NCBI GenBank assembly: GCA_944380355.1
Contig: CALWHJ010000001.1
Location: 62,001 to 126,000 of the forward strand
Direction of reading: 5' to 3'
From: an uncultured Christensenellaceae bacterium
Lineage (GTDB): Bacteria > Bacillota > Clostridia > Christensenellales > UBA3700
Length of the DNA stretch: 64,000 nucleotides
The notes below the pieces were generated by a model. It worked only from the letters and a program-made list of their open reading frames with translations. It was not told the origin of the DNA and ran no database searches. A program made the position numbers and the translations under genes. Shown here piece by piece: positions 17,392 to 20,667 of this stretch (positions within the stretch are counted from its first letter, which is position 1; each line of letters opens with the position of its first letter).

Positions 17392-17784
17392 TTATTTTAT
17401 CAGGCTGTCGAGACTCATTTCGTCAAGACAGGAATTGATGGCTTTGTAAAGTTTGTTCCACACGTTGTAGGTACTGCACATACACTTGTCGGCGCAATCG
17501 CCCGATATGCAGTCAATGATTACCAGTCCGTCCTCAAGTTCTCTCAAAATCTCTCCTACGTTGATTTCCTCGGGACTTCTCGCAAGACAGTACCCACCGC
17601 TCGCTCCTCTCGTAGCCTCTACCAGCCCGGCCTTTCGCAAAGTCGCGATAAGCTGTTCGAGATATTTTTCGCTGATACCGGTACTCTGTGCCATAGTAGG
17701 AAGACTGACTACGCCGTTGCCGTAGTTTTCTGCCATATAGCACATTGCTTTGAGTCCGTACCTTGCTTTAGAAGACAGTTTCAT
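17392..17784 (-). CDS. iscR: Rrf2-family regulator, IscR-like
   Basis: 130 residues. Winged helix (about 1-70: MKLSSKARYGLKAMCYMA), then a Cys cluster C92, C97, C101, C103 that could hold an Fe-S cluster as in IscR (three Cys plus a fourth ligand). It heads iscR-iscS-iscU and has a palindromic operator right after its -10 box, so it very likely represses its own operon. CymR-type cysteine regulators belong to the same family but lack this Cys set. Confidence 0.9.
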   Translation of the reverse strand: MKLSSKARYGLKAMCYMAENYGNGVVSLPTMAQSTGISEKYLEQLIATLRKAGLVEATRGASGGYCLARSPEEINVGEILRELEDGLVIIDCISGDCADKCMCSTYNVWNKLYKAINSCLDEMSLDSLIK

Positions 17785-17791
17785 TTCCTTG

Positions 17792-17816
17792 AATACCTAC
17801 TAATTTACTAGGTATT
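17792..17816. promoter_or_regulatory. Putative IscR operator
   Basis: Inverted repeat AATACCTA - 9 nt - TAGGTATT, located at the predicted iscR transcription start. The ATACC...GGTAT layout resembles Rrf2/IscR type 1 boxes. Confidence 0.75.
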
Positions 17817-17845
17817 ATTTTATACCATAGTTATTTGCTTGTCAA
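17817..17845 (-). promoter_or_regulatory. iscR operon promoter
   Basis: TTGACA (17845-17840), 17-nt spacer, TAAAAT (17822-17817) on the minus strand, immediately upstream of the operator. Confidence 0.8.
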
Positions 17846-17957
17846 TAGATTTTATACATATTTTAAAAGGATAAAAAAGTAAGTAAAAATATCGAATAGA
17901 TAAATAGCTGAAAATCAGTAAAAAGGCTGAATTATATACTTAAAACCGCCCTATAGG

Positions 17958-17977
17958 ACAGCAAAACGAATTGCTGT
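17958..17977 (-). terminator. Weak hairpin after the XRE gene
   Basis: ACAGCAA / TTGCTGT stem with 6-nt loop, 26 nt beyond the XRE stop. There is no real U-tract, so terminator function is doubtful. Confidence 0.3.
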
Positions 17978-18002
17978 ATTGACAGGACTTATTCCCTTCG
18001 TG

Positions 18003-18209
18003 TTAAATTTCTGAAAGCCCTAAAATATAGTCTGCGGAAACGTCGAAAATTTTGCAGAGTTTAATCAGGGATTCAACGTCGGGCAAAGCCTTATCAAGCT
18101 CCCATATAGATACGGTATCCTGAGAAGTTGACAGCATATCCGCTAGCTGTGTCTGCGTATATTTTGCATCTTTGCGCAATTGACGTATTTTATTTCCTAT
18201 GCTTTTCAT
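18003..18209 (-). CDS. Small XRE-family (Cro/C1-type) repressor
   Basis: 68 residues, essentially one HTH_3 domain: helices TQTQLADMLSTSQDTVSIWE at about 19-38 and the common ending SADYILGLSE. No metal or ligand domain. Upstream are two copies of a 17-bp palindrome (18220-18236 and 18249-18265), the likely binding sites, so it should control itself and the opposite promoter at 18243-18271. There is no Shine-Dalgarno before ATG 18209. Not linked to any phage genes or toxin gene here. Confidence 0.88.
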   Translation of the reverse strand: MKSIGNKIRQLRKDAKYTQTQLADMLSTSQDTVSIWELDKALPDVESLIKLCKIFDVSADYILGLSEI

Positions 18210-18219
18210 AATTGTATTT

Positions 18220-18236
18220 TACGAAAAATTTCCGTA
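18220..18236. promoter_or_regulatory. XRE operator 1
   Basis: TACGAAAAATTTCCGTA: palindrome around a central A with one mismatched pair, 11 nt before the XRE start codon. It would block the minus-strand promoter of the XRE gene. Confidence 0.7.
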
Positions 18237-18242
18237 TTTATG

Positions 18243-18271
18243 TTGACATACGAAAAATTTTCGTATATTAT
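18243..18271 (+). promoter_or_regulatory. Strong plus-strand promoter with embedded operator
   Basis: TTGACA (18243-18248), spacer of exactly 17 nt that is operator 2, TATTAT (18266-18271). A repressor bound to operator 2 would fully shut this promoter. Confidence 0.7.
18249..18265. promoter_or_regulatory. XRE operator 2
   Basis: TACGAAAAATTTTCGTA: perfect odd palindrome (19 bp with the flanking A/T), 29 bp centre-to-centre from operator 1. Confidence 0.75.
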
Positions 18272-18277
18272 GAATAT

Positions 18278-18606
18278 AGGATTTTTCTTTTGCAAAAACA
18301 TAACTACCCTATATTCGCAATATCTCTTTAAGGCAAAAAATGTTCGCTTAGCGCACTTTGCCTACGATATTTATAAGATTATTACTTTATAAGTAAACTG
18401 TAATTATATATACAAAAATACAATTAAAAAAATATAATTTATTTTAGGCTTTTAATGACTACACAATTCTTAAAGAATACAGACATAATTTTATAATTAT
18501 TGACACTCTCTAACCTATAAACTTGAAAAGAATCTGATATTTAATTCACGCTTTTCAGACGTCTTTTCAATCAAAAAGGACAAGCCTACCGACTTGTCCT
18601 TTTCTT
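18278..18606 (+). other. Gene-free region with possible XRE-controlled RNA
   Basis: Between the plus-strand promoter and the terminator at 18574-18606 I find no convincing protein gene: the only short frame starting near 18270 begins inside the -10 box. About 18331-18361 can fold as AGGCAAA / TTTGCCT around a CGC-TTA-GCG core. The rest is very AT-rich. A ~325-nt regulatory RNA is possible, but it is inference from the promoter and terminator only. Confidence 0.3.
18574..18606. terminator. Terminator of glyA (bidirectional)
   Basis: 11-bp stem AAAAGGACAAG / CTTGTCCTTTT, with T-runs on both strands. It ends glyA on the minus strand and any plus-strand transcript from 18278. Confidence 0.9.
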
Positions 18607-18622
18607 AGTTTACCGTTTTGCG

Positions 18623-19879
18623 TTATCTTATAATATCGTTGGCATAAAGAGGATACTTCTTGCAAAGCTCTGCAACTTTCTTGCTGCAACGCTCTACTGC
18701 TTCTTCTCTGTTGTCTACAAGGTCTGCAATACAATCTGCGATTACGAGCATATCTTCCTCTTTCATACCTCTAGAGGTAACTGCGGGGGTACCTATTCTG
18801 ACACCAGACGTAACGAAAGGCTTCTGAGTATCGAAAGGAATAGCGTTCTTATTTGCGGTAATATGCGCACTGTCGAGAAGTGCTTCAAGCTCCTTACCCG
18901 TCATACCCTTGGAAGTGAGGTCGATAAGCATAAGGTGATTGTCGGTACCGCCTGAAACAAGATTGATGCCCTTTTCGAGAAGTGCCTTAGCGAGTACCTG
19001 AGCATTCTTGACGATTTGCTGTTGGTAAGCCTTAAACTCAGGACTCATTGCTTCTTTGAGCGCAACAGCCTTTGCAGCGATTACGTGCATCAAAGGACCG
19101 CCCTGCGTGCCGGGGAAAATAGCCTTGTTAATCTTGGTAGCAATCTCTTCGTCGTTGGTGAGGATAAGTCCGCCTCTGGGTCCTCTCAAAGTCTTGTGCG
19201 TAGTCGTGGTAACTACGTGTGCGTAAGGCACGGGACTTTCGTGACAGCCTGCTGCTACAAGACCTGCGATATGCGCCATATCGACCATAAGATATGCACC
19301 TACGCTGTCAGCGATTTGTCTGAATCTCTTGAAGTCGAGAGCACGGGGATATGCGCTTGCGCCTGCAAGAATGAGTTTAGGCTTGCATTCCTTAGCAAGA
19401 GCCTCTACCTTGTCGTAGTCGAGAGTGCAAGTAGACTCCTCTACACCGTAAGGTACGATGTTGAAATATTTACCGGAAATGTTTACGGGAGAACCGTGAG
19501 AGAGGTGTCCGCCGTGAGCAAGACTCATACTGAGTACGGTATCGCCGGGTTGGAGCAAAGCGAAGAAAGTAGCGAGGTTTGCGTTTGCACCGCTGTGCGC
19601 CTGTACGTTGGCAAACTTTGCACCGAAGAGTTCGCACGCTCTTTCGATAGCGAGTTTCTCTACTATATCGACGTATTCGCAACCGCCGTAATATCTCTTT
19701 GCGGGATAGCCTTCAGCGTACTTGTTGGTAAGGTGAGAGCCTGCGGCAGCCATTACTGCGGGGCTGACGATGTTTTCGCTTGCGATAAGCTCGATATTAC
19801 CCTGCTGACGCGCAAGTTCCTGTTCGAGTGCCTGACACACTTCGGGGTCGGTATCGTTGATAACCTTAAAATCTATCAT
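18623..19879 (-). CDS. glyA: Serine hydroxymethyltransferase
   Basis: 418 residues from ATG 19879, chosen because AGGAG lies 7 nt upstream; the longer frame to 19948 runs through the promoter. PLP-lysine motif [14 protein letters not shown] near 220-233; the N-terminal motif [12 protein letters not shown] is typical. It interconverts serine and glycine while charging tetrahydrofolate, the main one-carbon source. Single-gene unit. Confidence 0.97.
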
Positions 19880-19916
19880 ATGTATCTCCTGTAATGTTGA
19901 TATGTTAACCTCTATA

Positions 19917-19945
19917 ATTTTAGCATAGCAAAGCTGTTTTATCAA
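19917..19945 (-). promoter_or_regulatory. glyA promoter
   Basis: TTGATA (19945-19940), 17-nt spacer, TAAAAT (19922-19917). The leader is about 30 nt, too short for a glycine riboswitch. Confidence 0.7.
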
Positions 19946-19998
19946 CAAATTTTATTATATATTAATATTTTAATTATTAATCAATATTATTGCTAATA

Positions 19999-20667
19999 TT
20001 ATTGCGAAAGCAGTCTGTCGATTACAAAGCCCGCTGTTTTTATACCGCACTCAGCGACAACGTAGCTTACACTGCCTACACCTTGCGAGACGCTCAATAC
20101 AGGCTCTTTTGTATAGCACACGTCGAGTTTTGTTATGCCCTTTTCCCTGAGAGTTTTTCTCAGTTTCTTTGCCAGCGCATCGTAACTCGTCTTGTATATA
20201 TCCGTAATCTCGAAAGTACAAGGCTTGATTCTGTTGCCCGCGCCCATCGCACTTACGATATTAAGACCTTTTTCCTTGGCAAGACAAATAAGCGCAACTT
20301 TTTCCTCGAAACTGTCTATTGCGTCTACAACGTAGTCCCAACCGCCGTCCAGCACCGCGGCGCTGTCCGCATTGAAACGGGAGTTGATTGCTACTACTTC
20401 GCAATCGGGATTTATGTCGAGAATACGCGCCTTCATAACGTCCGTCTTACACTCGCCTATGTTGGAATTGAGAGCTATAATCTGACGGTTGATATTGCTT
20501 ATATCTACCACGTCAAAATCCATTATGCCTACTCTTCCTATGCCGCACCTCGCCAGCATCTCCGCGACGTATCCTCCTACGCCGCCTATGCCGACGATAA
20601 GCACGCTTTTTCCGACGAGTTTTTCAAGTCCGTCTTGTCCTATCAGTCTCGTAATTCTCGACCACAT
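19999..20667 (-). CDS. tcdA: tRNA t6A37 cyclase TcdA (ThiF/E1-like)
   Basis: 222 residues. ATP-binding GIGGVGGYVAE near 27-37, the NRQ motif (SNINRQI), and DAIDSFEEKVAL in the place of the E1-like adenylation core. TcdA (CsdL) adenylates t6A37 in tRNA to form the cyclic hydantoin/ct6A. The family is ThiF/MoeB-like, but the absence of CxxC zinc pairs and of sulfur-carrier genes favours TcdA. It starts 1 nt after the aspS stop and closes a hisS-aspS-tcdA unit. Confidence 0.9.
   Translation of the reverse strand: MWSRITRLIGQDGLEKLVGKSVLIVGIGGVGGYVAEMLARCGIGRVGIMDFDVVDISNINRQIIALNSNIGECKTDVMKARILDINPDCEVVAINSRFNADSAAVLDGGWDYVVDAIDSFEEKVALICLAKEKGLNIVSAMGAGNRIKPCTFEITDIYKTSYDALAKKLRKTLREKGITKLDVCYTKEPVLSVSQGVGSVSYVVAECGIKTAGFVIDRLLSQ

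Follow-up and report, generated by a model that had tools for sequence, protein, structure and literature searches.

A repressor switch in a Christensenellaceae genome that has probably lost its protein cargo

Analysis of a 64,000-nt stretch of DNA from an uncultured Christensenellaceae bacterium (hereafter, the window) indicates that a small XRE-type repressor and the promoter divergent to it probably form an autoregulated switch whose protein cargo was lost. This reading builds on the cargo present at orthologous loci of relatives, on sequence drift downstream of the promoter and on the conservation of the repressor together with its operator/promoter block. The original prediction had placed a silenced RNA regulator or a very small peptide behind this promoter; because the gene that the promoter would drive in relatives is missing here, there is probably no hidden RNA at the locus. 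The whole arrangement, given below in window coordinates, is common to the window genome (G000) and the nearest relative compared (G016).

17392–17784, minus strand: Rrf2-family gene, iscR-like, adjoining the repressor gene on one side
18003–18209, minus strand: gene for a 68-aa repressor of the XRE/Cro-CI type (Pfam HTH_3 and orthologues)
18216–18221, minus strand: TAAAAT, −10 box of the repressor's own promoter, 6 nt ahead of the start codon
18220–18236, no strand: operator 1, TACGAAAAATTTCCGTA, an imperfect palindrome with one arm mismatch
18243–18248, plus strand: TTGACA, −35 box of the target promoter (promoter scan)
18249–18265, no strand: operator 2, TACGAAAAATTTTCGTA, a palindrome perfect about its central base (repeat analysis)
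18266–18271, plus strand: TATTAT, −10 box of the target promoter (promoter scan)
18272–18513, plus strand: stretch without cargo that contains an AGGCAAA/TTTGCCT stem (divergence; no CFI similarity)
18523–18570, no strand: hairpin adjoining the terminator, within a run identical in G000 and G016
18574–18603, no strand: terminator-like stem flanked by an A-run and a T-run (sequence; plus-strand terminator scan)
18623–19879, minus strand: glyA, past the terminator

Operator 1 overlaps the promoter of the repressor gene itself, and operator 2 makes up the whole 17-nt spacer of the plus-strand promoter, which agrees with the consensus at 11 of 12 positions and would start its RNA at about position 18278. 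The operator 2 palindrome can be lengthened to 19 bp. The expectation of an XRE repressor with two operators, the second a perfect 17-bp palindrome filling the TTGACA/TATTAT spacer, is thus borne out in protein family and coordinates alike, and with operator 2 as the promoter spacer we accept that the repressor could shut the plus promoter fully. The terminator-like stem is common to glyA and to any plus-strand transcript. A scan of the window genome found exact operators at this locus only, and a search allowing two mismatches added a single site, on another contig and inside an ORF. Across the order, the two-operator pattern with TTGAC, two mismatches allowed, was found in 27 of 396 genomes, compared with one match for a reversed control pattern. 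Given this ratio and the uniqueness of the exact operators, the pattern is not a product of chance.

The repressor consists for the most part of an HTH_3 domain (PF01381, residues 8–62; 51.1 bits against a Pfam cutoff of 23, 1.4e-13), placing it in the XRE/HTH_3 family. Its orthologues are 97% (G016), 94% (G008), 84% (G039) and 62% (G009) identical; the repressor of G028 is 57% identical. Between G000 and G016 the gene differs by two nonsynonymous and five synonymous changes (dN/dS 0.106), and none of the 62 bases of the operator/promoter block (18210–18271) is substituted; judging from these comparisons, repressor and block are under constraint. We infer that the protein binds the adjacent palindromes and represses. 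No partner ORF that could be the adjacent toxin of a type II toxin–antitoxin system lies at the locus, and NCBIfam antitoxin models scored the repressor under their cutoffs.

The same geometry recurs among related gut bacteria. Scanning species genomes for exact matches to operator 1 and operator 2 at a spacing of 12, with TTGAC, gave 35 stretches; with the results of the order-wide scan added and duplicates merged, we count about 50 distinct loci of this geometry, mostly in Clostridia and with mostly unrelated cargos. A divergent repressor could be read at 48 loci. In 42 of them it starts 9–12 bp from operator 1, lacks a Shine–Dalgarno sequence and is preceded, at six bases from the start codon, by a box that is TAWAAT or nearly so. 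The scan pattern specified TTGAC and the spacing of the operators, but neither the start distance nor the TAWAAT-like box. The short start spacing without a Shine–Dalgarno sequence suggests that the repressor mRNA is probably leaderless. The window locus shows every geometric feature of a two-operator XRE switch: spacing, spacer, start distance, TAWAAT-like box and lack of a Shine–Dalgarno sequence.

Two relatives carry a protein gene behind this promoter. G008 has both operators and a TTGACA-17-TATACT promoter, and between promoter and glyA sits a 162-aa ORF with an AGGAG site that matches CFI_box_CTERM (NCBIfam NF041770; 46.4 bits against a cutoff of 40). In G039, which belongs to another genus and carries the switch with unchanged geometry elsewhere in its genome, the ORF behind the promoter is 75% identical to that of G008 and, judged by this homology, is a CFI-box-CTERM protein as well. 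Identity to the glyA of the window is 98% in G008, 95% in G009 and 82% in G039; the repressor of G039 is thus closer to that of the window than is the repressor of G009 from the same genus, which suggests that the repressor may have been exchanged between genera. A search of the window genome gave no CFI match, and the gene is likewise absent from G016. As originally stated, there is no convincing ORF up to the glyA terminator: none with a usable start and ribosome-binding site (RBS) was found between promoter and terminator. Local alignment against shuffles and a permissive tblastn detected no remnant of the CFI gene beyond chance in 18272–18513, so its loss is deduced from the similarity of the repressors.

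In the lost-cargo switch that we favour, the XRE protein, probably as a dimer, would bind both operator 1, overlapping the promoter of its own probably leaderless mRNA, and operator 2 in the spacer of the divergent promoter. Occupying both, it would limit its own synthesis and block the plus promoter. In close relatives the product of that promoter would be a CFI-box-CTERM protein, rich in cysteine and about 160 aa long. The gene was most likely lost from the window lineage before this diverged from G016; what remains is a promoter whose transcript could only be untranslated and would run to the terminator shared with glyA. Counting against a lost cargo, the repressor is still under selection after the supposed loss, and the 3′ end (18515–18587) is unexpectedly conserved. 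Our guesses are that the repressor was kept to prevent a strong promoter from firing opposite glyA, or because the conserved 3′ end of the RNA has a use.

Alternatively, a cargo may never have been present, the repressor being solely self-regulating and the plus promoter incidental. G009, with its repressor at the same site as in the window, and G028, with its repressor elsewhere, also lack cargo, so that the ancestral state may have been cargo-less. At least five loci of this geometry are without cargo: no ORF that fits was found behind the promoter in the window, G016, L105, G009 or G028. In L121 the only frame is one of 14 codons, and L138 lacks a long ORF in the vicinity; L124 and L145, the latter with a short Cys-rich frame, are cut off by the end of the sequence stretch. 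One further candidate, L097, was dropped because an ORF of about 118–129 aa is present. Against a switch that never had a cargo, the CFI gene accompanies both of the closest repressors, those of G008 and G039, and most of the roughly 50 loci have an RBS-bearing ORF a short distance past the promoter. We therefore regard this alternative as unlikely.

The site itself varies. Elsewhere in the genus, the gap between iscR and glyA (L075, 2888–3316; L042, 1012–1437; L043, 1091–1450; L077, 2508–4712) is occupied by varied small genes, which suggests that genes can insert there. A near-perfect inverted repeat (17792–17816) stands in the promoter of the Rrf2-family gene, in a stretch similar across the genus, and is probably that gene's own operator.

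A broader and rather doubtful proposal is that a repressor of about 70 aa, probably leaderless, and its operator-spacer promoter form a portable cassette that takes up unrelated genes and whose empty copies are retained for their RNA or transcription.

Pairs of loci shared a cargo in 3 of 3 cases at a repressor identity of at least 80%, in 1 of 6 at 70–80% and in 6 of 69 at 60–70%, with the cargo gene picked by RBS score, so that some assignments may be wrong. Of eight loci with CFI homologues examined elsewhere, six combine a divergent HTH ORF with a promoter of the TTGAC type. In five of these six the spacer consists of palindromes of TACC or another type, and L159 is arranged differently. 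Of the remaining loci, L164 has similar palindromes with ATGAC in place of TTGAC, and L163 has none. In L160, L161, L162 and L080, CFI-box homologues also stand behind this layout, with operators of the form TACC...GGTA and a repressor of another subtype; divergent repressors in one layout would thus control CFI homologues through other operator arms, which, like the roughly 50 loci of fixed geometry, speaks for the lost-cargo switch. A looser pattern matched 23 of 297 genomes (control, 0), several with other arms.

As another alternative, the plus promoter could give rise to a regulatory RNA (18278–18604, about 327 nt) kept silent by the repressor. The intact promoter and terminator would fit this, and other cargo-less loci also keep their promoters intact. 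Compared with shuffles, the whole downstream stretch has a more stable fold (z = −4.2, or −2.5 with the terminator removed). However, 18272–18572 differs from G016 by 30 substitutions at 297 sites (10.1%), all of them before 18515, giving a divergence of about 12% in 18272–18513, whereas the pooled synonymous divergence of five nearby genes is 76/853 (8.9%). The 242 nt that follow the promoter, diverging no more slowly than synonymous sites, are apparently drifting neutrally, as judged from this one pair of genomes. Of the 93 pairs in the fold predicted for the window sequence, 14 are changed in G016; 12 of these are broken and none is compensatory. The AGGCAAA/TTTGCCT stem of the original prediction does exist (18331–18337 and 18357–18363), but its G18332–C18362 pair is lost in G016 with no compensatory change, and the 5′ part of the G016 stretch folds no better than shuffles. 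Neither conserved sequence nor conserved structure was thus found in 18272–18513. Similarity to the G009 stretch was not significant, an Rfam scan of 17700–20100 gave no match, plasmid and phage records searched with 18267–18606 held no similar DNA, and a search of the window genome for copies of 18500–18606 gave none that was convincing.

What is conserved downstream is 18515–18604 alone, that is, hairpin and terminator. A 73-nt run (18515–18587), noticed post hoc in this single genome pair, is identical in G000 and G016, next to 242 nt that drift, and none of 500 mononucleotide shuffles was as stable as its hairpin (−12.3 kcal/mol). This run speaks for an RNA. With a protein gene in relatives and drift over most of its length, we nonetheless hold a silenced RNA regulator to be improbable. 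Conservation in relatives had been set as the test of the region and its operators: the operators are present in G016, G008 and G039, and 18272–18513 failed it against G016. A very small peptide is highly implausible, as the 40–41-codon frame from 18270 in the window and G016 has an ATG that runs into the −10 box, ahead of the expected RNA start, no visible RBS and strongly different products with indels, and no small downstream ORF with a usable start is retained between the two genomes.

The predicted lost-cargo switch resembles those of lambda CI/Cro, P22 C2 and ICEBs1 ImmR in its small HTH protein of the same fold class, in its palindromic operators between divergent promoters and in its predicted autoregulation; structure-database matches include the ICEBs1 Xre regulator (PDB 7t8i, 2.4e-10) and P22 C2 (about 1.5e-6). 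Unlike in these phage and ICE switches, no second repressor and no mobile-element genes were noticed in the flanks here, and the switch usually has a single partner gene, which varies by genome and in many cases resembles a membrane protein or lipoprotein. In a survey of XRE regulators (PMC12565409), autoregulation and dimeric binding to palindromic motifs are reported to be common; the TACGA arms of the present operators are absent from the main text of that survey. In the literature searched (titles, abstracts and one paper, covering the CFI-box, DUF6809, leaderless XRE and Christensenellales XRE operators), we found no description of this layout, its fixed two-operator geometry, the operator as spacer or the probable leaderless repressor mRNA. 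What was suspected to be a hidden RNA thereby becomes an example, open to experiment, of a regulatory switch retained although its target is gone, and the fixed geometry provides a search pattern that ties poorly annotated small Clostridia repressors to the single gene that each probably controls. It also raises the question of which signal releases repressors without a ligand domain.

Two pairs of cassettes each lie within one genome: L117 and L128 are identical around the operators, and L174 and L181 share an identical operator sequence. Duplication or an assembly effect is possible in both cases.
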